From Muribaculaceae bacterium (GTDB lineage Bacteria > Bacteroidota > Bacteroidia > Bacteroidales > Muribaculaceae), in NCBI GenBank assembly GCA_017621055.1, contig JAGATX010000022.1, positions 18,715-82,714 of the forward strand: a stretch of DNA of 64,000 nucleotides, in the 5' to 3' direction. This document shows positions 19,713-45,572 of the stretch, piece after piece. The stretch's first letter is position 1, and each line of letters begins with the position of its first letter. The notes below the pieces were generated by a model. It was not told where the DNA came from, made no database searches, and was given only the letters and a program-made list of their open reading frames with translations. The position numbers were made by a program, and so were the translations under genes.

Positions 19713-22523
19713 TTATCGAACCACTACCTTATGCGAGGTACCGTCGACGCGCACGATGTAGATGCCGGCCGGCAGGTTTTCGGTGCCGAAGGCTCGGCCG
19801 CTGAGGTCATAGACGGCGGCATTGGTGTATTCGCCATTGATAATGATTTGACCTTGGGTGCCGAAGACAGTCACATTATTGCCGTCGGCAATGATTTCGC
19901 TGTCATCGATGCCGGTGACATTCTTCGTGGCGAAGATAGCAAAGGCGCCGGCGGGAACGGTGACGGAGACATTGCCGCTGCCGTTGTCGCTGATGGTGGC
20001 GTTAAAGCCCTGCGAAGCGCATATGAGCTGACTGTTGGCGGCGCTGAGCATTGATACCGGCACGCTGACATTTACGCCGCCACCCGTTACGGACGGATTG
20101 ACAAAGAGTACTGCTTCCTTGTTTCCGGCGGTGAGGCGGATATAGCGCGGGTCGCGGAACTGATTGTTGAGCATCGAAGCCTGGAAGGTGGCGTTGCGGG
20201 CAAAGAGCTCGGGGTTGTCCATGCGCAGGTTGATGATGGTGGAATAGATGTTGTGGAGGGCCATTCGGTCAGGATCGTCGAGGTAGTTCCAGCAAACGAT
20301 CTTGGCTCCGGTATCGTTGCCGCCCGAGGTCTGTTTGGTTGTCTGTCCGTTGCCGAGTTCGCCGAACTGCCATACCATCTTCGGACCGGGAGTCATGAGC
20401 ATCTGTGCGGCGAGTGTGCCGAGACGGCGCAGGCTGCCGGGGGTGATGGTTTCGTCGGAGCCGGCGGGCAGTTTGATGCCGGCGTTGCCGTATGCGGCAT
20501 TCTTGTAGGCCATGCGTTCTTCGTCGTGGCTTTCGGCATAGCTCACTGTCGAGCCCCAGGGACGGCCGCCGTCGCGCGACGACAAGAAGCGGTAGAGGTT
20601 ATTGTTGCCGGTATCCCAGCCCATGGTGAACTGGCACGAGGCGTCGTTGATGTTTGCCCACTGGAGCTGACCGTCGTTGCCGAGCGCTTTTTCTTCCTGA
20701 GCGCCGCCGAGCAGTTCGTTGATGTGTATGCCGTTGGGCTTCACGCTCTTGATAACGTTGTGCAGGCGGATCATACGGTTCACGCGGCTCTGGTTGTATG
20801 CCTCGGTGCCGTTGGCATAGCTGTCGTTGTCGCCAAGACCCTTGACGAGGTCGAAACGGAAGCCGTCGACGTTATATTCGGTAAGCCAGTATTTGAGAAC
20901 GTCGGTCCACTGCTGCTGAACGAGGGGGAAGCCCTGGTTCCAGTCGTTGAGCACGCTCCACTGGTGCGGTGCTTCCTTGTTATAGAAGGGGTTCGAGCCG
21001 GGTTCGTACATCATGTACCAGGGGTGGAGGCCGTCGCTCTGGTTGAAGACAATGTCGAGAATTACGGCAATGCCGAGGCGGTGGCATTCTTCGATGAAAT
21101 CCTTATAGTCGGTAGGAGAGCCGTAGGCCTTGTCGGGTGCCATGTAGAAGTTGGTGTTGTAGCCCCAGGAGTTGTTTCCGCCGAATTCCATGATGGGCAT
21201 GAGTTCGATGGCGTTGAAGCCCAGCGCCTTGATGTAGGGCAGGCGCTCGATGGCGGCGCGCACGGTGCCGTTGGCGGCGGCGAAGCCGGTGAGGCCGGTG
21301 AAGTCGCGCAGCAGCAGTTCGTAGATAACGAGGTTATCGTGCTCGGGAATGGTGAAGGGCGAGAACTGATATTGTTCGGTGTCGTGGCGGTAGACGGCCA
21401 GCATTATGCCCGAGAGCTGGTCGTAAGGGTAACGCGGACGGTCGCGCCACGACTGGTTGAGCTGAGAGGCACGGTCGTTCCAGGGATCGAGCACCAGATG
21501 TGCATAGGGGTCGGCTACCTTATATGTATCGTCTACGATATAATAGTAGGGGTACCATTCGTTGTCGTTGAGGCCGCTGACGGTGGTCCAGAAGTAGCGG
21601 TTGCCTTTGTAGTCCTGATATTTCATCAGGTTTTTGTCAAGCAACTCGTAATTGTCCCACGAGCCTACTATCATCACCGATGTTTTGCCGGGAGCTGCCA
21701 GACAGAACGTTACCGTTCCGTCGTTGTTGCGCACGGCGCCCATTGTGGGTATGCCGCCGGGATAATCCTGCTGCAGCGATGCCTTGGGATATGTGAAATT
21801 GAGCGTTTTTTTGTAGTCGCGCCCGCCGTAGGTGGCCGTGGCGGTAACCACATAGCTGCCTTCGGCGCTGAAGGTGAATGGCTTGGTGAAGTCTGTCACG
21901 GCGGTGGCGCTGCCGAACTCCGTGCCGTTGACGTCGAGTTTGATGTCGGCGGCGGCAGTGGTCGATACCGTGAAATTCACCGTTGTGGGCCTGTTGAACA
22001 CATCGTTCGTGGCGTCGGAGGTCAGCGCCATCTGGAAGCCGTCGGCCAGCACATCGATGAGAATGTCGCCGTTGGTGTTGGTCTTACCTTCCTGGCGGCC
22101 GTCGGCTGTACGGAACACTACGGCGATTTTCTTGATATTCTCCGTGGGGGAGGTTATGCCGAAATAAGTACGCATATCACCGATTTCGAGGGTGTAGGTG
22201 TTGGGCCCTACATAGGTGAGGCGGTTTTTATCCAGATTGGCCTGCTGCTGGTTGGAGGTAGTGGGCCACGGAGCCACTACGTGTTTCCAGTCGGCGTTGG
22301 AGGTGCTGAGGTTGGTGATTACGCCGATATGGGCATAGACGTCGGTGCTCTGAGGCAGCCCGGCGAGGCCCCGGTTTCCTAACGGCGAGTCGGCGTGATA
22401 GGTGAGTACCACGCCCTGACTGCCTTCCTGAAGAAGGGCGGGCTGGGTGCTGACAAGTTGTGCCGAGGCGCCGAGACCGGCAAGCACAAGAAGCCACACG
22501 AGGGCAAAATGTAATTTTGTCAT
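19713..22523 (-). CDS. Secreted GH13 (alpha-amylase superfamily) enzyme with C-terminal sorting-type tail
   Basis: This 936-residue protein has a signal peptide (MTKLHFALVWLLVLAGLGAS), two beta-sandwich-like domains (about 25-310, the second resembling CBM48/E-set), and a GH13 barrel (about 390-780). The four GH13 regions read DIVFNQ, GFRFDLVKG (nucleophile Asp), HINELLG (acid/base Glu) and ESHDEE (transition-state Asp). The usual His of region I (DVVYNH) is Gln. A C-terminal beta domain follows, ending in YDLSGRAFGTENLPAGIYIV and a basic tail, the pattern of Bacteroidota type A sorting domains. It should act on alpha-glucans at the cell surface. I chose the ATG at 22523 for its signal peptide; upstream codons in the frame overlap the promoter. 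Confidence 0.9.
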   Translation of the reverse strand: MTKLHFALVWLLVLAGLGASAQLVSTQPALLQEGSQGVVLTYHADSPLGNRGLAGLPQSTDVYAHIGVITNLSTSNADWKHVVAPWPTTSNQQQANLDKNRLTYVGPNTYTLEIGDMRTYFGITSPTENIKKIAVVFRTADGRQEGKTNTNGDILIDVLADGFQMALTSDATNDVFNRPTTVNFTVSTTAAADIKLDVNGTEFGSATAVTDFTKPFTFSAEGSYVVTATATYGGRDYKKTLNFTYPKASLQQDYPGGIPTMGAVRNNDGTVTFCLAAPGKTSVMIVGSWDNYELLDKNLMKYQDYKGNRYFWTTVSGLNDNEWYPYYYIVDDTYKVADPYAHLVLDPWNDRASQLNQSWRDRPRYPYDQLSGIMLAVYRHDTEQYQFSPFTIPEHDNLVIYELLLRDFTGLTGFAAANGTVRAAIERLPYIKALGFNAIELMPIMEFGGNNSWGYNTNFYMAPDKAYGSPTDYKDFIEECHRLGIAVILDIVFNQSDGLHPWYMMYEPGSNPFYNKEAPHQWSVLNDWNQGFPLVQQQWTDVLKYWLTEYNVDGFRFDLVKGLGDNDSYANGTEAYNQSRVNRMIRLHNVIKSVKPNGIHINELLGGAQEEKALGNDGQLQWANINDASCQFTMGWDTGNNNLYRFLSSRDGGRPWGSTVSYAESHDEERMAYKNAAYGNAGIKLPAGSDETITPGSLRRLGTLAAQMLMTPGPKMVWQFGELGNGQTTKQTSGGNDTGAKIVCWNYLDDPDRMALHNIYSTIINLRMDNPELFARNATFQASMLNNQFRDPRYIRLTAGNKEAVLFVNPSVTGGGVNVSVPVSMLSAANSQLICASQGFNATISDNGSGNVSVTVPAGAFAIFATKNVTGIDDSEIIADGNNVTVFGTQGQIIINGEYTNAAVYDLSGRAFGTENLPAGIYIVRVDGTSHKVVVR

Positions 22524-22580
22524 GTAAATAAGTAAGAATGTATTAGATATTTGTTTTGAGTCGGTGTTTGAAACGTGGTG

Positions 22581-22588
22581 CAAATATA
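22581..22588 (-). promoter_or_regulatory. -7 promoter box for the GH13 gene
   Basis: The minus strand reads TATATTTG, 57 bases upstream of the start codon. It is an exact consensus match. Confidence 0.6.
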
Positions 22589-22681
22589 CTAAAAATGAAA
22601 CAATCGGCAAAATATCCATGTTCTCGGGCATTTCTGCCTGAAAAGGCCGCCGACCAAGGTCCGTTTTTTGCATTTCGTTGT

Positions 22682-33424: not shown

Positions 33425-33769
33425 CAGACCGTACCGCAGAAGCCCGGTCAAGGGGCGGAGGCGGGTAGGAAAGCACGGCGTGCCGCGCGGCATGCCGGTA
33501 CTTCGATGAAAAAAAGGCGTTTACAACGACGCTCTTCTTGACGCATGGAAATCTGGTAAATTTCAATCTCAGTCAAGAGTGAGACAACGGTAAGCAGCCA
33601 TGTGGATATGTCGACGATACATCGGAGACGGAGTGCGAGAGCACTTCCGCCCCGATGCCGAGCATATTCTGCGTGAGGCTTCTGCACGTTGTCCGTTCTA
33701 CTGAGATGGGCAATACCAGAGCCTCCATGCGTGAACGGGCAACAAGTATGGCTCTCACGCACTTTTTTT
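33425..33769 (+). ncRNA. Candidate structured RNA or long regulatory leader ahead of the protease operon
   Basis: Between a full promoter and a T7 tract the sequence has no good frame but many stems. CTTGAC (33532-33541 area) pairs with GTCAAG near 33574. CATCGG...CCGATG around 33620-33660 encloses GGAGTGC-GAGA-GCACTTCC. GTTGTCCGTTC (33688-33698) pairs with GAACGGGCAAC (33733-33743). CTCACGCA (33754-33761), directly before the T-run, can pair with TGCGTGAG (33670-33677) or, competing, TGCGTGA (33728-33734). This is attenuator-like. I could not match it to RNase P, tmRNA, SRP or known riboswitches. It may be an independent RNA or a leader of the protease gene 57 bases further on. Confidence 0.5.
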
Positions 33770-33828: not shown

Positions 33829-36800
33829 ATGAGCTACAAATCCATAGCGACCGCCTTGCTGCTCTCCGCCGCCACCTGCACATGGGCCACGGCACCGGCA
33901 GGCACCGCCCCCGGCGACTGCGACGTGGCTACCGTCGACGCCGCACGCACCCGGGGCGCCTATGTTCCGAACCAAGTAATTGTCAAGCTCCGCGACAGCA
34001 GCGCCGCCCGTGTGGTGGCCGGCCGTCATGCTCCCGCCGCCACGCGTGTGGCAGCCCTCGACGAGGCCTTCCGCGCCGCCGGCGTCGACGCCATAGAGCC
34101 GCTCATGCCCCTCACCGGTGGTCAGACCTTCGCCCGGCGCGCCCGTGCCTTCAACGGCGCCGTGGTAGAGGCGCCCTCGCTGGAGCGCGCCTATGTGCTC
34201 ACCGTCAGCGCCGACGTGCCCGCCGCCCTCGCCGCCCTCGAGGCCGTGGCCGATGTGGAATACGCCGAGCCCAACTACCTGGCCTATGCCCTCGATGCCG
34301 CACCCGACATCAACGATCCCTATTACTCGCTGCAGTGGGGCATTGCCGACATAAACCTCTATCAGCTGTGGGGCCAGCCCGTGCTCACCAAAGAAGGACC
34401 CGTGATAGCAATTATCGATACGGGCGTGGACCTCGAGCACCCCGACCTTGCCCCCAACCTGTGGACAAACCCGCGTGAGGGTGCCGGCGCGGAAGGATAC
34501 GACGACGATGGCAACGGATACACCGACGACGTCCACGGCTACGACTTCGTGAACCAGACGGGCCGCGTGGCCGACTATAACGGCCACGGCACCCACTGCG
34601 CCGGCATTGCCGCCGCACGCGGATACAACGGTATCGGCATTATCGGCGCCAACCCGGACGCCCGCATCATGGCCCTGTCGGTGCTCCAGAGCAACGGCAC
34701 CGGCGATATCGCCACAATCATAAAGGCTATCGACTATGCCGCCGCCAACGGCGCCGACGTGCTGAGCATGAGCCTCGGCACATACTCCGAGTCCATAGCC
34801 CTTCGCGAGGCCCTGGGCCGCGCTTACCAGAAGGCCGTGATTGTGGCCGCCGCCGGCAACGACGGGTACTGCCTCAATCACCGCCACCCTGAGCGCGGCC
34901 AGATGCAGCCCATGCCGATGTTCCCCGCGGCATATAACTTTGTGCTGGGCGTGCAGGCGGCAACCACCGCCGGCGGCCTCGCCCAGTTCTCGAACTACGA
35001 TGACGACGGCCCCGTGTTCAGCCCCTACTCCGAGGAAGAGCTCTATAACTACGAGATCACCGCTCCCGGCGTGGGAATAATGTCCACCTACCCCGGCGGC
35101 CAGTACAAGAACCTCAACGGCACATCGATGGCCACGCCCTTAGTTGCCGGCGCTGTGTCGCGCCTCCTTCAGGCCAAGGAATATGCCAACAAGGAAGAGC
35201 TCTTCGGCGACCTTATCAATTCGGTCACCGACAAGGGTAATCTCGACATCTACCGCGCCTATACCATCACCGCCGCCGACCGCCGCCCCGAACTCCAGTT
35301 CGTGAGCTTCGACATGGTCGACGCCGACGGCGACGGCCGCCCCGATGCCGGCGAGACCCTTGAATTCTACCCCGTGATCCGCAACGCATGGGGCAATGTC
35401 TCGGACATCAAGGTGCGAATAGAGTGCGCCGAGACCGCAAACACCTTCTGCGAGTTCCTTGCCTCCGAGGCCGACTTCGGCAACTCTCTGAGCAGCTACA
35501 GCAAGGCGCGCTCCGCCAACCCTCTGCGTCTGAAGATCAACGACGGTGTTGTGGACGGCCGCATCTGCCGCCTCCGCTTCATAGCCTCGGCACCTAATGC
35601 TCAGACCATAGAGCAGGAGTTCGAAATCAATGTGGAGAACGGCGTGGAGATCGGCGGCGTCCTCGGCGAGGACATGACCCTCCATGCTGGCGTGCACTAT
35701 ATCGTCACCACCCCACTTGCCATTCCCGAGGGTGTGACCGTCACCATCGAACCCGGCGCTGTCATAAAGTTCAAGGATAACACCGGTCTGCTTTGCGGAG
35801 GCACGCTTAATGCGGTCGGCCAACCGGGGAATATGATTACTTTCACGAAGGCAGACTTTGCATTGGGGGAAATCACATCTTTTAGGGTGAGCTCTCCAAG
35901 CATTCTCAAATATTGCATAATTGAGAATTTAGCGTTTTTAAATATGAATAATCAAAGTGTTTACGGTGAGAATGTTATATATAGAAACTGCAAAGGTCAT
36001 TACCCCCTAATGGGCTTTATCTTCGATAAAAGTAATTATTATAACCTAACTGCAACCATATCAAATCACGGTGGCAGACGAAGTACAAGCAATATAATTA
36101 ATTTATGGCAGAAACAATTTCATGTAGGACAGCCTGCTGTCAATATTGAAGGAACGAGCAATTCTAATTGTTTCGGCAATTTCGTTGATGGGCACTTTAT
36201 ATCTGTCTCGTTAGTAGACGAATTTACAGCCTCTAAATACACCCCCTCGGAGCCGAGCTATCTGGGTTCGGGACGGCAGGATATCGTCCGCTCGCATGTG
36301 GTTGACATCAACTGGCCCGGTAGCGGCAGCTTCGGCGAGCTGGATCTCTCGAACATGCTGACACGTCCTGTTGCCGAAGCCCACGGCATTGTGTGGAAGG
36401 TGGTTGTCGACGGCTACGACGCTCAGGACGAGTTCGACCTTCTGCCGGCTCTCGGCGTGGCACGCCATAAGTTCGAAGTATACTTCAACAGGCCGATGAA
36501 CAAGGCCGTGGCGCCCACCGTCGCCATGGGCGTGCGTCCGCCCTACACGCAAACCTCCATCGGCGAGGACGGCGCATGGAACGAGGCCGGCGACATATAC
36601 ACCGCCTACCTCACCATCAGCGGACGCGAGAACATCGACGGCCTCAACCGCATCTACGTCTCCGGCGCCGAGGACGACGAGTTCTTTGAAATCCCCGTGG
36701 AGAACACCCGCTTCAACGTCAACGTCCAGGCTGCCGGCTCGCTCTCCACAGGCTTTGCCGGCGAGGCAGGCCTCGGCCGCGTAAACCTCGAGTGGGAGGA

Positions 36801-37713
36801 CATGGACGTGAATTTCGAGGATATCCTCGGTTACAACATGTACCGTATCAATCCGGCCGCCGAGGGCGCTCCCGCCGACACCGTGATGCTCAACCAGCGC
36901 CTTATCGACGCCGGCACAACGACGATGACCGACTACGACGTTACCCCCGGCAACACCTACCGCTACTACTACAAGGTGATGACCACCGCCATGCGCGAAA
37001 CCGACCCGTCGCGCACCATCGCCGTGACGCCCCTGACGGCCACACGCGGCGACGCCAACGGCAGCGGTGACGTCGACGTGGCCGACGTGCTCGCAACCGT
37101 GAGCTTCGCCTCGGGCTACAGCCCCAAGCCCTTTATCTTCGAGGCCGCCGACATGAACGCCGACTCCGACATCGATATTGTCGACGTCGTGGGCATCATC
37201 AACGTGATTATGGGCACACCGGATCCGTCGATGCTGCAGAGCACCGCCGAGGCCACGCTCACCGTCGAGGACGGCGTGCTGTGGATCGACTCGCCCGTTG
37301 AGTTCGCCGGCGTGCAGTTCGACCTCACCACCGACCCCGCAAACCGCATCAGCGTGCTCGAGGCCCTCGCCGGCTTCGAGACCACCGGCTCGTGGCATGC
37401 CGACGATACCTACCGCTTCATGGCATATAACCTCGCCGGACGCACCATCGGCGCCGGCCGCCACGCCCTGCTGCGCATCGGCGACGCCCGCGTGGCCGAC
37501 GCCCGCATGAGCTCGCCGCTGGGCGAGAACATCGAGGTGAACTTCGGCAATACGTCGGGCATCGACGTAACCGACCTCGACGGACAGCGCGTGGAAGGCG
37601 CACGCCGTGGCGTTTACAACATCATGGGTGTGAAAGTGGGCGACAGCGAGGCCGACCTCGACCGTCTGCCCGCCGGCATCTACATTGTCAACGGCTGGAA
37701 GGTGATTAAATGA
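33829..37713 (+). CDS. Large secreted subtilisin-like (S8) protease with dockerin-like module and sorting tail
   Basis: This 1294-residue protein has a signal peptide (MSYKSIATALLLSAATCTWA), a propeptide-like region (about 45-155), and an S8 domain (about 160-450) with D197 (IIDTGVD), H253 (NGHGTH), N344 (AAAGND) and S433 (GTSMATP), so it should be active. A beta-rich middle follows, including a right-handed-helix-like stretch at about 660-810. Then come a fibronectin-like part, a dockerin-type module (about 1074-1130; GDANGSGDVDVADV, DMNADSDIDIVDV), a cohesin-like sandwich (about 1135-1255), and a tail ending LPAGIYIVNGWKVIK. Residues about 670-804 are encoded by much more AT-rich DNA. It is the first of three coupled genes. 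Confidence 0.9.
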   Translation: MSYKSIATALLLSAATCTWATAPAGTAPGDCDVATVDAARTRGAYVPNQVIVKLRDSSAARVVAGRHAPAATRVAALDEAFRAAGVDAIEPLMPLTGGQTFARRARAFNGAVVEAPSLERAYVLTVSADVPAALAALEAVADVEYAEPNYLAYALDAAPDINDPYYSLQWGIADINLYQLWGQPVLTKEGPVIAIIDTGVDLEHPDLAPNLWTNPREGAGAEGYDDDGNGYTDDVHGYDFVNQTGRVADYNGHGTHCAGIAAARGYNGIGIIGANPDARIMALSVLQSNGTGDIATIIKAIDYAAANGADVLSMSLGTYSESIALREALGRAYQKAVIVAAAGNDGYCLNHRHPERGQMQPMPMFPAAYNFVLGVQAATTAGGLAQFSNYDDDGPVFSPYSEEELYNYEITAPGVGIMSTYPGGQYKNLNGTSMATPLVAGAVSRLLQAKEYANKEELFGDLINSVTDKGNLDIYRAYTITAADRRPELQFVSFDMVDADGDGRPDAGETLEFYPVIRNAWGNVSDIKVRIECAETANTFCEFLASEADFGNSLSSYSKARSANPLRLKINDGVVDGRICRLRFIASAPNAQTIEQEFEINVENGVEIGGVLGEDMTLHAGVHYIVTTPLAIPEGVTVTIEPGAVIKFKDNTGLLCGGTLNAVGQPGNMITFTKADFALGEITSFRVSSPSILKYCIIENLAFLNMNNQSVYGENVIYRNCKGHYPLMGFIFDKSNYYNLTATISNHGGRRSTSNIINLWQKQFHVGQPAVNIEGTSNSNCFGNFVDGHFISVSLVDEFTASKYTPSEPSYLGSGRQDIVRSHVVDINWPGSGSFGELDLSNMLTRPVAEAHGIVWKVVVDGYDAQDEFDLLPALGVARHKFEVYFNRPMNKAVAPTVAMGVRPPYTQTSIGEDGAWNEAGDIYTAYLTISGRENIDGLNRIYVSGAEDDEFFEIPVENTRFNVNVQAAGSLSTGFAGEAGLGRVNLEWEDMDVNFEDILGYNMYRINPAAEGAPADTVMLNQRLIDAGTTTMTDYDVTPGNTYRYYYKVMTTAMRETDPSRTIAVTPLTATRGDANGSGDVDVADVLATVSFASGYSPKPFIFEAADMNADSDIDIVDVVGIINVIMGTPDPSMLQSTAEATLTVEDGVLWIDSPVEFAGVQFDLTTDPANRISVLEALAGFETTGSWHADDTYRFMAYNLAGRTIGAGRHALLRIGDARVADARMSSPLGENIEVNFGNTSGIDVTDLDGQRVEGARRGVYNIMGVKVGDSEADLDRLPAGIYIVNGWKVIK

Positions 37714-39749
37714 GAACCCTTGATCTGAAAAAGGCGGTGACGGCGATATTCCTCGCCCTCACCGGCTTTATGAGCCACGCCGCAATGGAGGTTACGCTCA
37801 CCGACGCCTCGGCAGCCGGCGGCAGCGCCGCAACTGTCGAGGTGGAGCTCACCGCCGACACTCCGCTGAGCGGCCTGCAGCTGCTCTTCGATGTTCCCGG
37901 GGGCTGCGACATCAGCCTGGGGAACGCCGAGGGCGCCGGGCGCGCCGCCGCTTTCTCGGCGAGCGCCGGCATCCGCGAGGGCCGCGGCTCGGTGATGCTC
38001 TTCAATGCATCGGGCGCCACCATCGCCGCCGGCAAGGGGCTGGTGGCACGTTTTGCCGTGAATTACGGCAACAAGCCCCTCGACGCCACGGTGGGAGTGA
38101 CGGTGAAGGCCGTCGACGCCGCCGGCGCCATGGTCGCCGTGCCGTCCGCCTCGCTGCGTCTGCTCTGCCGGCAGCCTCAGGCCACCTACTCCGTGCGCGC
38201 GATCGATTTCGGGCGTGTGCCTCTCGGCACGGCGCCCACGCTCTCGATGAACGTCACCAACGAGGGCACGGCACCGCTCACGGTGTCCGGCCTGGAGTTC
38301 GACAATGCCGAGTTCACCAGCACGGCCGTCCTGCCGTTCACCGTGGCCCCCGGCGCCGCAATGCCCCTGGAGGTGAAATTCGCACCCTCGGAACGAGGAA
38401 CGGTCGATGCCGCCGTGAAAGTGCTGTGCAACAGTCCGCAGACTTACAACACCGTGCGGCTCCTCGGCCGGCCTTTTGCCGTGAACGAGGTGCACGTGGC
38501 CGATGCCGCCGGCACTGCCGGCGACGAGGTGACTGTGGCCCTGAATATGAACAATATGGACGCCGTGAACGGCTTCACCATGGAGTTCGACCTGCCCGAC
38601 GCTCTCGAATACGTTCCCGGCAGCTTTGTCCTCGGCGAGCGCGGCGCCGCCCACTCGCTGAGCGTGAACTGCACGGGCAAGCGTCTGGTGGCTAACGCCT
38701 ATTCGCTGACCAACGAGCCGTTCGCCGGCAGCGACGGCGCCGTAGCCACCTTCCGCGTGCGGCTTCAGGGCAAGGGCTACCACTCGCTGGCGCTCAAAAA
38801 GTGCCGCCTCAGCGCCTTCTATCGCGGCGAGATCATGGATGTGACCTCCGATACCTATGCCGGTGGTATTTCCATCAGTTATCCGTCGATATCGGTGCAG
38901 AGCGACCTCTCGCTGGGCCGTACGCCCGTTACGCAGACCGCAAACACCGAGCTGGAAATCCATAACTACGGCAATGCGCCGCTCACCATAGAGCGCGCAG
39001 TGCCGGACAACGACAACGTAGAGGTGGCCACGCCGTTGCCCCTCACCGTCGAGCCATGGTCCACGGCCACGCTCCGTCTCTCCATCGGCAATGCCTACCG
39101 CGGCGACGTCGACGGCCGGCTGAGCATATACAGCAACGACCCCGAGCGCAAGATGGTGGATGTGGCATTCACCGGCAACCGGTATTCGCCCAATGAGCTG
39201 CACTTCGGCGTTGCCCGCGCCGCGGCGGCCGGCGCCGACGGCATGGTGGCCGTGGTGCTCGCCAACAACGACGCCGTGAGCGGCCTCCAGTTCGACGTGC
39301 GCACCGCCGGTGGCGTTTCGCTCGGCGACGCCGCGGCCACGGCGCGGATGGACGGTTTCACCGTCACACGGCGCACCCTCGCCGACGGCACCGAGCGCTT
39401 CTTTGTCTACTCGCTCGGCGGCGCCGCTGTGGCGCGCGGCAGCGGCCTGGTGCTCAATATCCCCTATTCGGCCACCGCTGCCGCTGAGCAGCCTTTCGAG
39501 GTGTGCAACGTCCGCATCTCCACGCCCGACCTGGAGAATGTGTCGTCGCTCGTCACCGGACACCACTTCCTCCTCGGCGATGTCGACGCCAACGGCACCG
39601 TAAATGTGGTGGATATAACGAGCCTTGCACGCCATATTTCGCAAGGACTGATTTCTCTGTTGAACTCCTTTGCTACTGATGTCAATTTTGACTCGGCTGT
39701 CAATGTCGCCGATATAACAGGAACGGCGAATATAATTCTACAAAAGTAA
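37710..39749 (+). CDS. Secreted modular protein with cohesin-like, ASH-like and dockerin-like domains
   Basis: This 679-residue protein starts in an ATGA overlap with the protease stop. After a signal peptide (KKAVTAIFLALTGFMSHA) come a cohesin-like sandwich (PLSGLQLLFDVPGG, about 25-150), an ASH/choice-of-anchor-D-like domain (IDFGRVPLGTAPTLSMNVTN, about 160-255), a second cohesin-like domain (VNGFTMEFDLPDAL, about 258-395), a second ASH-like domain (about 405-500), a third cohesin-like domain (VSGLQFDVRTAGG, about 505-610), and a C-terminal dockerin-type pair (GDVDANGTVNVVDI, DVNFDSAVNVADI). It has no catalytic motif and looks like a scaffold. The domain calls are by pattern and need profile confirmation. 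Confidence 0.78.
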   Translation: MRTLDLKKAVTAIFLALTGFMSHAAMEVTLTDASAAGGSAATVEVELTADTPLSGLQLLFDVPGGCDISLGNAEGAGRAAAFSASAGIREGRGSVMLFNASGATIAAGKGLVARFAVNYGNKPLDATVGVTVKAVDAAGAMVAVPSASLRLLCRQPQATYSVRAIDFGRVPLGTAPTLSMNVTNEGTAPLTVSGLEFDNAEFTSTAVLPFTVAPGAAMPLEVKFAPSERGTVDAAVKVLCNSPQTYNTVRLLGRPFAVNEVHVADAAGTAGDEVTVALNMNNMDAVNGFTMEFDLPDALEYVPGSFVLGERGAAHSLSVNCTGKRLVANAYSLTNEPFAGSDGAVATFRVRLQGKGYHSLALKKCRLSAFYRGEIMDVTSDTYAGGISISYPSISVQSDLSLGRTPVTQTANTELEIHNYGNAPLTIERAVPDNDNVEVATPLPLTVEPWSTATLRLSIGNAYRGDVDGRLSIYSNDPERKMVDVAFTGNRYSPNELHFGVARAAAAGADGMVAVVLANNDAVSGLQFDVRTAGGVSLGDAAATARMDGFTVTRRTLADGTERFFVYSLGGAAVARGSGLVLNIPYSATAAAEQPFEVCNVRISTPDLENVSSLVTGHHFLLGDVDANGTVNVVDITSLARHISQGLISLLNSFATDVNFDSAVNVADITGTANIILQK

Positions 39750-39755
39750 TACGAT

Positions 39756-40451
39756 ATGAATCACATACTTAAAACCGGCATAGCAACTGCCGTACTCCTC
39801 TTCGGCGATCTTGCGATGGTCGCAGAGGATGAGAATCCCGGAACGTTCACAATTCCCGATGTTCGTTTCGATGAAGAAGGTCGTGCCACGGTCGAAGTGT
39901 ATTTTGAATCTGATATAGAGGGATATAACGGCTTGCAGATGGACTTCTGGATGCCGGCGGAGATTACCATCGAATCGGATGAATACGGGCCGATATGTGA
40001 TGTGAATCCACGTTTCGCACGCGGATACTCATTCATAGGTGCAGACCGAACCCACACCACCGACCCTGCTCTGGTGGAGGAAGGAGTGCACTTCTATCGC
40101 CTTGTTGGTTTCTCGGCAAGACCTATTCCCAGCCCGTGCAGAGGCTTGTTCTACTCATTCACCGTGCTTGCCTCCACAGCTCGAACTGCCACTGATGAAC
40201 CCGTCAACGTTCACGTAACGAACATAGAATTTAGCCCGCAGCAGGGCGATGCTCCCGCCTACCTCAACACCTTCCCTGATATGGATTTCAAGATCGAGCC
40301 GTATCAGCAGACGGGTGTCGAGCTGAATCCCATGGAAACCGTCACCGACGGCACCATCTACGATACGCAGGGCCGATGCCTCGGCACCGACGTCGATGTG
40401 CAGCAGCCCGGCGTATACATCATTGGCGGCCGCAAGGTCCTCGTTCGCTGA
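39756..40451 (+). CDS. Small secreted cohesin-like protein with sorting-type tail
   Basis: This 231-residue protein follows the scaffold gene after six bases. It has a signal peptide (IATAVLLFGDLAMVAE) and one cohesin-like domain (about 30-165; EGYNGLQMDFWMPAEI matches the GLQFDV strand of the upstream gene's modules). It ends in a tail with IYDTQGRCL and PGVYIIGGRKVLVR, typical of Bacteroidota type A sorting signals. It may anchor dockerin-bearing partners to the cell surface. The 5' two thirds are less G+C-rich than neighbouring genes. It is the last gene of the operon and is followed by a long hairpin. Confidence 0.75.
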   Translation: MNHILKTGIATAVLLFGDLAMVAEDENPGTFTIPDVRFDEEGRATVEVYFESDIEGYNGLQMDFWMPAEITIESDEYGPICDVNPRFARGYSFIGADRTHTTDPALVEEGVHFYRLVGFSARPIPSPCRGLFYSFTVLASTARTATDEPVNVHVTNIEFSPQQGDAPAYLNTFPDMDFKIEPYQQTGVELNPMETVTDGTIYDTQGRCLGTDVDVQQPGVYIIGGRKVLVR

Positions 40452-42469: not shown

Positions 42470-44419
42470 TCAATAAATTATCTTACGTACTGAGGAGCCG
42501 CGCCGTTGGATGTAAAGCTGACCTTCGACGGGGTTCTCCACGCGAATACCTTCGATAGTAAAGTACTCGGTCTCGACATCTGCATTGATGCCGGGCTCGA
42601 CGATGCCGTTTGTGCCGAAACCGCCGATTTCCATTCTTATGCGGGGAGCTGCCTGGGCTTCGGGCGAGAGCAGCGTCATGTCGAGATAGGCGCGGTTGGA
42701 TTTGAGCACCGCGTTCTCGGCAAGCTGGTAGAAGCCGACATTGCCTTCGGCGTTGACGCCGAACACGCGCATGGCGGTGGCATCGTAGCGGGTATAACCC
42801 TCGTCGGCGTAATCATTGGTTACCTCGACAGCGCCGGTAATTTCCACTGTGTTGAGCTGGAATACGCCTTTGAGGAGGTTGCCGTCGGCCACCGAGGCGT
42901 CGATGCGGCTGTCATCGGGTTCAAGAGGTATGAGACGGTTCTGGGGCGTGAGGCCGTTGCCGTCGTAGCCCTTGAGGTACTCGGTGAGGTCGGTAGGCTG
43001 CTGACATTTGATGAGTACAGCCGTGTTGGCCGGCACTATGCCGTTCTCGATTTTTTTGAGCGAGAGCACTGTAACGCCGTTCTCCACGCGCGATGCATCG
43101 ACGATGTAGGCTTCGTGGCCGTCTTCCTCGACGAGCTCATATGGGAAAGAGGTGTACATCGACTCCCAGTATCCGCCGTCGAAGAACATGGATTCATCGG
43201 GGCAGGCTCCGAACCAGTGGCGGTCGCGGTCCATGGTCTCTCGGCTGACTTTGTTTATCTCGAACTGGCTGTTTATGCCGTTTTGATTCGAAGAGGCTTT
43301 CAGGGTACCCCAGCCTACGTGCGGGACGCCCGAATCGAAAAGATGCTTAAGAAGGGCAGGGTTTGAATACAGCTTATAGTATCCGGGGTTGTCGATCCAT
43401 TGTATACTCAGGGTATTGTTGGGGAAGAATTCTTTCGAGTTCACGCCCTGGCCGGAGAGGGTAACGTCGGACAACACCGTCTGATCGGCTGAATAGGTTG
43501 TTGTATAAGTGCCCGTGGTACCCGAAATATGAATGATGCCCGAGGGATCGTTGTATATATTGTCTGTGCCTAACCAGTTGTTAATCTGATCATAGTTGCT
43601 ATATGGATTGAGTACAAGGCCCACATCGGTGAGAACGCAAACATTGGAAGCGCTCAGGCGCAGTTTCACTTTGCCGGCGACCCGCACCATGGCGTCGGCA
43701 CTCGTCCAGATACGGTAATAACCGTTGCCGTCGACTTCGGCCTCAACCTCGTACATTGCGGTATAGATACCTTTGTTTTCTTCGGTGATGGTGAACGTAT
43801 AGTTCTGTTCGGTCGATACTATCTCACCGGCGGAATTTTTCCACCCTATGAACCTGATGTTCTTATTCGGTTGCCGCCCATATTTATTGATGAAAGAAGC
43901 GTAATCGTAAACTTCAGCGGCAGGAGTGCCGTAGAGCGTGATTTCATCGCCCACAGCATTCTCGAAGGCACTCAGCGACGGGCTGCCCAGTTCCTGAGGT
44001 TCGGCAACCACACGCACCGGCGACTCGCGGTCGAAGATGGCGTAATATGTTTTGGTGAGAGGATTAGCCTCTTCTTTGGTTGAACATTGTATCTCGAAAT
44101 TGTATGGGTTTTCGGTCGACAGTACATTGGAGCCGTCGGCCTTGTCCGACCAGCAGCGGAACACATATCCTTCGTCGGGAAGGGCGTGGAGGTAGAACGG
44201 TACGTTGCCCACACTGTTGCCACCCGAGGCGGAGTTGACCATCTCGTGGTCGTAACTGAAACTCGAGGCTGCGGGGACGGTTGCCGTTTTCGAAACATAA
44301 ACCTTGCCTTTGCCGGACTGTCCGTGAGCTACAGCCTTGGCATAATAAGTCCCTGCTGATGCTGCCGGCGCGATCGCCAGACAGAAAAGGAGCATGAAGA
44401 TTTTGATAATTTTATTCAT
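42470..44419 (-). CDS. Large secreted protein with sorting-type C-terminus, function unknown
   Basis: This 649-residue protein has a signal peptide (IFMLLFCLAIAPAASAG). The N-terminal part holds two beta repeats of similar layout (FRCWSDKADGSNVLSTENPY and FIGWKNSAGEIVSTEQNY), as in Bacteroidetes surface proteins with InlB-like or Listeria-type repeats. The body is beta-rich without catalytic motifs. The C-terminus ends FTIEGIRVENPVEGQLYIQR plus a basic tail, a variant of the sorting signal seen in four other proteins of this window. It is the third gene of an operon and overlaps the end of the Lnb-like gene by eight bases. Confidence 0.78.
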   Translation of the reverse strand: MNKIIKIFMLLFCLAIAPAASAGTYYAKAVAHGQSGKGKVYVSKTATVPAASSFSYDHEMVNSASGGNSVGNVPFYLHALPDEGYVFRCWSDKADGSNVLSTENPYNFEIQCSTKEEANPLTKTYYAIFDRESPVRVVAEPQELGSPSLSAFENAVGDEITLYGTPAAEVYDYASFINKYGRQPNKNIRFIGWKNSAGEIVSTEQNYTFTITEENKGIYTAMYEVEAEVDGNGYYRIWTSADAMVRVAGKVKLRLSASNVCVLTDVGLVLNPYSNYDQINNWLGTDNIYNDPSGIIHISGTTGTYTTTYSADQTVLSDVTLSGQGVNSKEFFPNNTLSIQWIDNPGYYKLYSNPALLKHLFDSGVPHVGWGTLKASSNQNGINSQFEINKVSRETMDRDRHWFGACPDESMFFDGGYWESMYTSFPYELVEEDGHEAYIVDASRVENGVTVLSLKKIENGIVPANTAVLIKCQQPTDLTEYLKGYDGNGLTPQNRLIPLEPDDSRIDASVADGNLLKGVFQLNTVEITGAVEVTNDYADEGYTRYDATAMRVFGVNAEGNVGFYQLAENAVLKSNRAYLDMTLLSPEAQAAPRIRMEIGGFGTNGIVEPGINADVETEYFTIEGIRVENPVEGQLYIQRRGSSVRKIIY

Positions 44420-45572
44420 AGTATTTGAGAATGATTGGAATATAATGGGAGAGAACTCTCAGGGCGATTGCGGCGGACAGGAGTGAACTCCATGTTCCGG
44501 CGTTGGAGGTGAACAGCGGAGCGGCGACGAAAAGAGCGGCCGCAACGCCGTAGACCAAGAAGAATATCGGCGCCCATCTTCGCCGGCGCCATACAAGCCA
44601 TACTATTGCCGGCAGCGGGTTGAGCGGGATATAGAGCCAGTTCCAGGTGCCTCCGATGCTGAGAGGCAATACCGAGACGGCGATAAGGGCGAGCGACGTC
44701 ACCGTGAGCAGAACCAGCGCTGTGCGGTCGGCGATGGCGACGAGCCGCGGGAGGCGATGGCGCAGATCGGCGAGCGATACCGCGACGGAGAGAACCAGTA
44801 TGGCGGCAAAAACGGCGCCGGGAGTGGCGGCCGGGCTGTCATCTGTAGCCTTGGCAGCCAAGACCACCGGTTCTCCGGCAAGCAGGGGGCGGCTGGTGCC
44901 GTCGGCCGAACATATTGTCGCGGTGGGGAGCATTGCCGGCATGGCCGTCGGTACCATCCGCGTGCGCCATGAGTCGGTATCGCCGCAATCGGCTCCAAGA
45001 GCGGCGGTGAGCACCAGTGCCGCCCATGGCCTTGACGGCAGGAGGATGGCTTTCAGGGCGTCGCCGTTGTCGAGGGTGACCAGACTGTCGCGTGCCACGA
45101 CGATGGATTCGCCGCCGAGGGCTGCCGCAATCTTGTCGAATGCCGCCGAGTTGCAGTTTCGCCACCTGATGTTGAAATTGCTCTCTGCGCCCTGCTCGGC
45201 ATCGCCGTCGCAGAACATCCACAGACGGCGTATCTGGCTGTCGGTGAGGTTCAGCGGGTAGGAGGTTATGCCTCGGCCCTCGTCGATGAACTCGCGGCAG
45301 TAGTCGGAGAAGGCTATTCGCGAATACCGGCCCTTGGCACGTCCGAAAACCTGTCCGGCAAGGGAGCCGCGGTCGGTTTCGTAGCTGAACACATTGTCCA
45401 GACCGTATGCCGGGCATTCAAGCCTGATGGCGACGTGGCCGGTGCATTGAAACACCTTGTCGCCGGGCGATGCGACCAGAAGCGAGACCTTCACGGGCTC
45501 CGCGGTGCCGTGGGCACTGCAGATGCCCGCGAAGATCAAGAGGATTGCAATACAGGCTTTCGCTGCCGGCAT
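44412..45572 (-). CDS. DUF4105 / Lnb-like membrane protein
   Basis: This 386-residue protein has a signal peptide, a periplasmic DUF4105 domain (about 25-200) and four or five membrane segments at the C-terminus. A His in QCTGHVAIRLECP and a Cys in WRNCNSAAF fit the NlpC/P60-like Cys-His pair of this family. In Bacteroides a DUF4105 protein (Lnb) was identified as a lipoprotein N-acyltransferase. Whether this copy does that is uncertain. It is sandwiched between two secreted-protein genes, 14 bases after the first and overlapping the second, which suggests a linked function in export or modification. Confidence 0.8.
   Translation of the reverse strand: MPAAKACIAILLIFAGICSAHGTAEPVKVSLLVASPGDKVFQCTGHVAIRLECPAYGLDNVFSYETDRGSLAGQVFGRAKGRYSRIAFSDYCREFIDEGRGITSYPLNLTDSQIRRLWMFCDGDAEQGAESNFNIRWRNCNSAAFDKIAAALGGESIVVARDSLVTLDNGDALKAILLPSRPWAALVLTAALGADCGDTDSWRTRMVPTAMPAMLPTATICSADGTSRPLLAGEPVVLAAKATDDSPAATPGAVFAAILVLSVAVSLADLRHRLPRLVAIADRTALVLLTVTSLALIAVSVLPLSIGGTWNWLYIPLNPLPAIVWLVWRRRRWAPIFFLVYGVAAALFVAAPLFTSNAGTWSSLLSAAIALRVLSHYIPIILKYYE

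Follow-up and report, generated by a model that had tools for sequence, protein, structure and literature searches.

Three genes on the same strand at positions 33829–40451 probably specify a cell-surface protease assembly that follows the cellulosome design and uses T9SS, with docking predicted among a dockerin-bearing subtilase (P1), a multi-cohesin scaffold (P2) and a candidate anchoring cohesin protein (P3). The genes lie within the window, the whole 64,000-nucleotide stretch of Muribaculaceae DNA that was analysed, and the modules described there in the initial annotation were confirmed to be present. Its interpretation (the module assignments, the order of the genes, their tails and a self-contained system) is supported at the level of sequence. 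The present analysis adds three points: the operon is conserved across the Bacteroidales, its T9SS signals are of the short kind, and the P2 dockerin is linked with a P3-type neighbour. The features are as follows.

33829–37713, + strand: P1 (1294 aa), a secreted subtilase of family S8 that carries a dockerin, a cohesin-like module and a short T9SS tail
34393–35244, + strand: P1 Peptidase_S8 domain (residues 189–472; D197, H253, S433; PF00082, E 1.9e-52)
37048–37215, + strand: P1 dockerin (residues 1074–1129; calcium loops at 1075 and 1108)
37228–37557, + strand: P1 cohesin-like module (about residues 1134–1243), C-terminal to the dockerin
37558–37710, + strand: P1 short T9SS C-terminal signal (51 aa)
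37710–39749, + strand: P2, scaffold protein with three cohesin modules, two ASH modules and a C-terminal dockerin (679 aa)
37785–38168, + strand: P2 cohesin module 1 (residues 26–153)
38169–38471, + strand: P2 ASH / choice-of-anchor D module 1 (residues 154–254; NF012200, 84.3 bits; PF15780)
38472–38882, + strand: P2 cohesin module 2 (residues 255–391; PF00963, 24.7 bits, cut-off 24.1)
38883–39185, + strand: P2 ASH module 2 (residues 392–492; second stretch matching PF15780 and NF012200)
39186–39548, + strand: P2 cohesin module 3 (residues 493–613)
39573–39746, + strand: P2 C-terminal dockerin (residues 622–679; PF00404, 28.5 bits, cut-off 22.9), with no T9SS tail following
39756–40451, + strand: P3, candidate anchoring cohesin protein (231 aa)
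39840–40307, + strand: P3 cohesin-type module (residues 29–184)
40314–40448, + strand: P3 short T9SS C-terminal signal (45 aa)

The start of P1 was placed at 33829, where the sequence reads as a signal peptide; the longest P1 frame begins at 33655. The three genes had been described as translationally coupled, which fits the P1/P2 junction (4 nt overlap) but not P2/P3, where the spacing is merely close (6 nt gap).

P1 is a predicted protease on both its family score (Peptidase S8, 178.8 bits) and its catalytic triad. The triad residues D197, H253 and S433, already called intact, are kept not only in the window but also in 18 of 19 aligned homologues; the nineteenth (G056) ends at a contig edge ahead of them. 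The paired calcium loops proposed for the P1 and P2 dockerins also hold up: loops lacking ligands had been named as an outcome against the dockerin reading, and all four carry D, N or S at positions 1, 3, 5, 9 and 12. The proposed Pfam comparison gave a divided answer, with PF00404 matching P2 but not P1 of the window, and PF00963 matching P2 module 2 but not P3. The whole window P1 gave no Dockerin match at E up to 1, and its dockerin scored below the PF00404 cut-off of 22.9 bits both as a C-terminal piece (15.0 bits) and in the genome search (14.5 bits). A scan at E up to 0.2 found a Dockerin match in 17 of 18 P1 proteins (best 9.7e-8), the window P1 being the sole exception. The dockerin aligns in the window and 19 homologues with its ligands conserved, and dockerin-domain entries were among its matches to PDB profiles (best E 0.0049). 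The P1 tail falls below the cut-offs of TIGR04183 (14.6 of 23 bits) and PF18962 (15.3 of 27 bits). By our reading, it fits motifs B, D and E of the short CTD, for which the available text of PMC11969387 gives a length of 43–55 aa; some P1 orthologues carry a long T9SS-type tail at the same position.

The scaffold P2, annotated with three cohesin-like domains and its own dockerin, is recognized by Pfam at module 2 and the dockerin, and by profile comparison at modules 1 and 3, which align with module 2 at hhalign probabilities of 99.8% and 98.6%, respectively. In the genome search the PF00963 score of module 2 was 22.3 bits, and comparison of its profile with the PDB found no cohesin. The top PDB matches of module 1 were entries named as cellulosomal scaffoldin protein (E 0.031), and those of module 3 were the Clostridium perfringens NagJ entries 2jh2 and 2ozn (E 0.012–0.036), which we take to be cohesin modules of secreted glycosidases. 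For the cohesin modules other than P2 module 2 the PDB E-values, which range from 0.0095 to 0.95, are weak, and the lower matches include unrelated entries. Among P2 orthologues, PF00963 at E up to 0.05 matched 21 of 25 in one set and 18 of 31 in another, and in one orthologue (L075) it matched three stretches at 38.4 bits. A contig scan with P2 as query returned no relatives. A scaffoldin with several cohesins and a dockerin-bearing enzyme, one of the features expected of a cellulosome, are both found at sequence level, in P2 and P1.

P3 had been described as a small cohesin-like protein with a sorting tail. The window P3 itself has no match in Pfam or NCBIfam, and its cohesin call is made because of its relatives, in which PF00963 scores 21.9, 24.1 and 25.0 bits (L117, L188 and L189), and because of profiles. 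Its module aligned at 97.8% with P2 module 2 and 98.9% with P2 module 3 but at 3.8% with an ASH control, and its top PDB match is named as a scaffoldin protein (5n5p, E 0.0095). The 45-aa tail, which we read against motifs B, D and E as given in PMC11969387, fits the short CTD in motifs and length, and one P3 relative (L189) scores 24.7 bits with PF18962 (cut-off 27). Both parts of the description are upheld by the relatives, the profiles and the motif reading.

The organism's own genome (93.5% complete) agrees with a self-contained system, as had been suggested, since its two credible dockerins are those of P1 and P2. A third apparent dockerin, located within DNA topoisomerase I, was rejected, and a cohesin match of 14.3 bits was not counted; it belongs to a protein of 1557 aa whose end is T9SS-like. 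Apart from P3 itself, the P3 profile matches nothing in this genome but two P2 modules and one stretch interrupted by stop codons (E 0.099). No dockerin-bearing carbohydrate-active enzyme was found in this genome, and an ordinary carbohydrate cellulosome was rejected because it holds no further credible dockerin enzyme. The T9SS translocon is represented by SprA (SprA_N, E 1.6e-182), and T9SS tail matches number 20 at E up to 0.1, of which 10 are above cut-off.

P1 and P2 form a conserved gene pair in which P1 retains its dockerin. Within the window's family P1 occurs in 17 of 297 genomes, and 16 of these 17 also hold a full-length P2 (at most 3 or 4 candidates were scored per genome); in the seventeenth (G062) P1 meets the contig end. 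In a wide Bacteroidales set, P2 lies within 3 kb downstream of P1 at 68 of 79 loci, and within 300 nt at 63 of the 68. All 74 P1 frames of this set that are closed at their end contain a dockerin, although that of L138 is P2-type. The dockerins fall into two classes, with 76 of 77 P1 and 23 of 24 P2 dockerins scoring better in their own class. L064 (stop within P2) and L069 (masked) were omitted from the P2 alignment (A3), and L149, identical to L145, was omitted from set A12.

The module that follows the P1 dockerin bears on which partner that dockerin uses. It occupies this place in the window as in each of the 19 homologues aligned, and it resembles P2 module 3 (97.3%), as would be expected if the dockerin packed against this neighbouring module in its own chain or among P1 copies, in an X-module-like dyad or in P1–P1 chains, with P2 a separate surface adhesin of the same operon. 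We consider this arrangement unlikely: every full-length P2 locus of the family (19 of 19) has P1 directly upstream of the multi-cohesin P2, the P1 module does not resemble P2 module 2 (8.4%), and P1 already has its own tail. Because both a tail and a cohesin-like module accompany the P1 dockerin, some self-docking or internal packing of P1 is nonetheless possible.

P2 relatives end either with a dockerin or without one, in the latter case often with a T9SS-type tail. The two endings were compared at 56 of the 79 wide loci plus the window; the loci set aside were 11 that lack a P2 in the 3 kb downstream of P1, 10 whose P2 continues past the contig end, the masked L119, and L127, whose P2 is interrupted by a stop. 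Of the 26 rows in which P2 bears a dockerin, 13 have a P3-type gene after P2, versus 0 of 31 others (Fisher 4e-6); L079, with an internal dockerin, is counted with the former, and counting it as lacking gives 12/25 versus 1/32. With full-length neighbours, a kinship-aware comparison yields 5 independent contrasts, of which 4–5 agree and 0 are opposed (sign test 0.0625–0.125), a value that misses 0.05 because 5 contrasts cannot reach it. When full-length neighbours were surveyed at the dockerin-P2 loci, a P3-type gene followed P2 in 18 of 25 testable cases and was absent from the neighbourhood at seven (L125, L130, L133, L134, L137, L146 and L151). Among six Prevotella loci, three (L111, L122 and L128) have after P2 a gene that, at full length, combines cohesin, dockerin and P3-type modules with a T9SS-like tail. 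At L123 the end of the next gene is masked, with cohesin and dockerin visible, and a tailed P3-type protein lies three genes past P2. The P3-type call at L129 was made from coordinates, and L120, cut at a contig end, was not counted. P3-type cohesins outside P2 (E up to 1e-6) were found in all 13 dockerin-P2 genomes without such a neighbour in the first survey. The other loci were covered by a whole-genome search of 30 genomes with P2 lacking a dockerin; 7 of these hold a P3-type cohesin elsewhere at the same threshold, and none shows a P3-type match beside P2 except L104, where we read the match in the next frame as the remainder of a P2 split by a frame shift. The presence of a dockerin on P2 is associated with that of a P3-type neighbour.

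This co-occurrence also bears on whether P1 is instead a maturation protease, with P2 and P3 its substrates or surface-layer structural proteins and the modules merely calcium-stabilised structural units. Post-translational processing or nitrogen recycling has been proposed for cellulosomal peptidases (PMC12484212, available text), and the P2 ASH modules appear structural; but the pairing of the P2 dockerin with a P3-type neighbour and the presence of tandem-cohesin proteins in dockerin-rich relatives make such a role quite improbable. That the modules are generic immunoglobulin-like folds which do not dock specifically, their EF-hand-like loops having arisen by chance, is suggested by the weak scores of single window sequences and weak PDB E-values, but is highly improbable in the face of hhalign controls that set cohesin modules apart from ASH modules, the PF00963 matches among P2 orthologues and the conserved calcium ligands.

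In the favoured cell-surface assembly, P1, P2 and P3 would enter the periplasm by Sec signals, and the T9SS tails of P1 and P3 would direct their export and anchoring. The P1 dockerin is predicted to plug into P2 cohesins, so that one scaffold may carry up to three proteases, and P2 would be kept at the surface by its own dockerin bound to the P3 cohesin. In related lineages P2 would be anchored directly by its own T9SS-type tail, without a P3-type gene after it; the two modes would parallel scaffoldins and anchoring scaffoldins of cellulosomes, but with T9SS. Concentrated surface proteolysis may provide peptides, or it may serve to trim proteins of the host or the diet. We infer the dockerin–cohesin pairing, stoichiometry, export route and substrate from these features. 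A speculative extension, to which we give rather little credence, is that the P2 dockerin serves as a ticket for T9SS export and anchoring: P2, its own T9SS tail lost, would have no route to the surface other than docking onto tail-bearing P3 while still in the periplasm, and the folded complex would cross the T9SS pore. If true, such hitch-hiking would also account for those dockerin proteins of dockerin-rich rumen relatives that leave no space for a tail; in two such genomes, 23 of 32 sampled complete dockerin ORFs end within 10 residues past the dockerin. A permissive tail regular expression was discarded for these ORFs, as it matched dockerin ends.

Cohesin–dockerin assemblies, the paradigm for enzyme complexes of modular build, are regarded as essentially clostridial, with Gram-positive anchoring in Clostridium thermocellum. 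The nearest published parallel is the proposal for Candidatus Stygibacter (Cloacimonadota), whose available text (PMC8542988) describes signal-peptide enzymes with C-terminal dockerins, one of them a peptidase with an S8/S53 domain, like P1, and, like P2, a scaffold of tandem cohesins, whose conserved C-terminal domain serves to attach it to the cell's own surface. Candidatus Stygibacter belongs to another phylum, however, and has one 3,755-aa scaffold with carbohydrate-binding modules and several enzymes; that text describes no separate protease–scaffold–anchor operon. The C. thermocellum S8 protease with the double dockerin dDoc_0689 (probably PDB 8x39, a match in this analysis) resembles P1 and is reported to prefer the cohesin of a cell-bound scaffoldin, but is one accessory protein within a cellulase complex (PMC12484212, available text). 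The Limousia mucinolysome is a gut cohesin–dockerin complex that includes dockerin-bearing peptidases as well as an anchoring scaffoldin, but is described as Gram-positive, sortase-anchored and mainly composed of glycosidases (PMC12997984, available text). Dockerins, joined in some Bacteroidetes by cohesins, are reported from rumen Bacteroidota and gut relatives, including Sodaliphilus with 63–107 dockerins (PMC10872696), Prevotella MAGs (PMC7480376) and camel rumen bins (PMC6071333). These reports give counts or domain lists, and their available texts describe neither a protease–scaffold operon nor a T9SS anchoring logic; the Prevotella paper states that the functional role is undefined (PMC7480376). 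The combination of cohesin and dockerin in Bacteroidetes was called surprising and in need of investigation in a 2026 paper (PMC12997984, available text).

The operon would place a plug-and-socket design of the cellulosome type, with predicted binding, in the Bacteroidota, a phylum without accepted assemblies of this kind. It is a minimal version, a single genome holding two credible dockerins and two cohesin proteins; it is conserved across the Bacteroidales, and it includes a natural swap between direct anchoring of P2 and anchoring through a partner; the Bacteroidota question is therefore directly testable with three proteins. It also raises the question of how proteins without a T9SS tail exit the cell, and may provide a source of surface-display parts for gut Bacteroidales.

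The three same-strand genes proposed by the initial annotation were recovered at the following coordinates.

33829-37713, plus strand: P1, S8 subtilase of 1294 aa
37710-39749, plus strand: P2, scaffold protein of 679 aa
39756-40451, plus strand: P3, candidate anchoring cohesin protein of 231 aa

P1 matches PF00082 at 178.8 bits in the Pfam scan, in agreement with the proposed subtilisin-like protease, and is organized as a fervidolysin-like propeptide, the S8 domain, a long middle region that by reading appears partly beta-helix-like, a dockerin, a cohesin-like module, and a C-terminal tail. In P2, three cohesin modules alternate with two ASH (choice-of-anchor D) modules, and the dockerin forms the extreme C-terminus. 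P3 consists of a signal peptide identified by eye, one module, and a tail.

In the evaluation against PF00963 and PF00404, P2 scored above the Pfam cut-offs for both cohesin and dockerin. The P1 dockerin of the window fell under the PF00404 cut-off, but its calcium ligands are conserved in an alignment of the window with 19 homologues, and PF00404 was matched (E up to 0.2) in 17 of 18 P1 proteins, the window being the sole non-match. In profile comparisons, P2 module 2 was linked at 99.8% with module 1, at 98.6% with module 3 and at 97.8% with the P3 module; the link between module 3 and the P3 module reached 98.9%. ASH control modules gave 0.1%, 1.7% and 3.8% against module 2, module 3 and P3, respectively. 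These links support the three cohesin-like domains proposed for the scaffold and the one proposed for the small protein. In a profile search of 177,635 distinct PDB sequences, the best match of both the P3 module (E 0.0095) and P2 module 1 (E 0.031) was 5n5p, named a cellulosomal scaffoldin protein, and that of P2 module 3 was NagJ (E 0.012); module 2 had no cohesin match. Weaker matches for P3 were mixed, comprising a coat protein (E 0.2) and two cell-wall anchoring proteins (E 0.44-0.49). We take 5n5p, NagJ and the cell-wall anchoring proteins to be cohesins. Two relatives of P3 reached the Pfam cohesin cut-off, L188 exactly (24.1 bits) and L189 with 25.0 bits; L189 also has a T9SS (type IX secretion system) tail match of 24.7 bits (tail cut-off 27). 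Cohesin was matched at E up to 0.05 in 21/25 dockerin-ended P2 proteins and 18/31 lacking a terminal dockerin, and three cohesin stretches were matched in the P2 orthologue at locus L075.

The dockerins separate into two classes. A P1-dockerin profile was the better fit for 76/77 P1 dockerins (62/63 outside the seed genomes), and a P2 profile for 23/24 P2 dockerins (16/17). The sole P1 exception, L138, has a P2-type dockerin at its end; this P1 relative (L138:5621-9055, plus strand) has neither a P1-type dockerin nor the cohesin-like module and the tail. The split fits two predicted plug types, in which P1 would dock on P2 and P2 on P3.

A P2 search of the 297 family genomes returned 19 full-length homologues beyond the window, all with P1 directly upstream; the 4-nt P1-P2 overlap of the window recurs in six. 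P1 occurs in just 17 of the 297 genomes, with P2 alongside in 16, and the operon is therefore sporadic in the family. Across a wider set of 79 loci, retained from 141 relatives and taking in Muribaculaceae, Paludibacteraceae, Prevotella, Lentimicrobiaceae and others, all 74 P1 frames that are complete at the 3' end carry a dockerin, and P2 lies within 3 kb downstream in 68 loci.

The probable mode of P2 anchoring was compared in 57 rows, window included. P2 ends in a dockerin in 25, and L079 additionally has an internal dockerin. Por_Secre_tail (Pfam) was matched in 9 of the 31 P2 proteins without a terminal dockerin and was absent among the matches listed (25 families) for the 25 dockerin-ended ones. 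A P3-type gene (profile >15 bits, start within 700 nt of P2) follows P2 in 13/26 dockerin-P2 rows vs 0/31 others (Fisher 4e-6); five of the 13 are profile seeds (the window, L077, and L094, L106 and L136, copies of one genome) and eight are not. Full-length neighbours added five Prevotella loci, three verified (L111, L122, L128) and two weaker (L123, L129), giving 18/25 dockerin-P2 loci, with L120, which is cut by the contig end, left out. After correction for kinship, 4-5 of 5 independent contrasts agreed and none opposed (p 0.0625-0.125), which is suggestive of a link between P3-type neighbour and P2 dockerin, not proof. P3-type cohesins outside P2 (E up to 1e-6) were found in 13/13 dockerin-P2 genomes searched and in 7/30 genomes whose P2 lacks a dockerin. 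With at most 150 candidates scored per genome, dockerin-P2 genomes contain 2-29 dockerins with a P3-type neighbour (13 genomes) and 13-140 without (7 genomes; Mann-Whitney p 0.0007).

In four Prevotella loci (L206:2498-9472, L207:1927-9978, L208:2864-10849, L209:3111-10697) the gene after P2 encodes a protein of 2324-2683 aa. The stretches read resemble leucine-rich repeats, and the protein ends in a cohesin, a dockerin, a P3-type module and a T9SS-like tail (the L209 end is masked); in three of them, 251-263-aa cohesin-plus-dockerin proteins come next. The P2 relative at L104:9886-12681 (plus strand) has no terminal dockerin or visible tail, and a further module lies in the next frame, as though the P2 frame had been broken.

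The C-terminal signals of P1 (51 aa) and P3 (45 aa) resemble the short T9SS signals of Prevotella intermedia, which are 43-55 aa with motifs B, D and E according to PMC11969387. Aligned P1 orthologues have either this short form or a long T9SS-type tail at the same position, and Pfam called Por_Secre_tail in 7/18 P1 proteins (E up to 0.2). SprA is present in the window's own genome (E 1.6e-182) and in 286/297 family genomes. At an E threshold of 0.1 the own genome yields 20 T9SS tail matches, ten of them above cut-off, and the P1 tail is the weakest of the 20. Elsewhere in the window, the frame at 19713-22673 (minus strand), with a TIGR04183 match (G000:C30:38433-38609), likely encodes another T9SS cargo protein. 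The protein encoded at 44412-45572 (minus strand) is distantly related to the lipoprotein N-acyltransferase Lnb, scoring 73 bits against a cut-off of 550, and the neighbouring protein at 42470-44419 (minus strand) has an InlB-type repeat and, by reading, a short T9SS-like tail.

The window's own genome measures 2.03 Mb and is 93.5% complete; a dockerin search allowing E up to 1 hit P2, P1 and topoisomerase I, the last rejected as spurious. The cohesin search hit P2 and, weakly, a further protein of T9SS type, and the P3 profile matched P3 itself, two modules of P2 and a single stretch interrupted by stop codons (E 0.099). With all non-spurious dockerin matches in P1 and P2, the system is self-contained, as had been suggested. 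The literature searched, with subscription papers and preprints mostly outside it, yielded no description of the P1-P2-P3 operon or of cohesin-dockerin complexes anchored through the T9SS in Bacteroidota; the closest published parallel is a proposal for Cloacimonadota (PMC8542988).

Some other members of the family are rich in dockerins. In genus g17, probably Sodaliphilus as inferred from PMC10872696, the first-look count of dockerin candidates ranged from 69 to 318 per genome, of which no more than 21 were scored. With 150 candidates scored, four dockerin-rich genomes had 104-140 that matched at E up to 0.01. Domains seen in a sample of ten dockerin proteins include C10 peptidase with Spi inhibitor, amylase, amidase, BspA-type LRR, NAGPA and FGE-sulfatase. 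Three proteins of genome G309 with FGE-sulfatase-type domains (L158 by Pfam; L161 and L162 by reading) carry a dockerin at the N-terminus; such clients are unusual in cohesin-dockerin systems. A 916-aa protein of the same genome (L180, G309:C1) has six tandem cohesin-type modules and a C-terminal dockerin by our profiles, of which Pfam calls the dockerin only, and a protein of a further genome (L074, G193:C7) has four Pfam cohesin stretches and a C-terminal dockerin (111.3 bits). With tandem-cohesin proteins and up to ~140 dockerin matches per genome in these rumen relatives, a full cellulosome-like system may exist in Bacteroidota.
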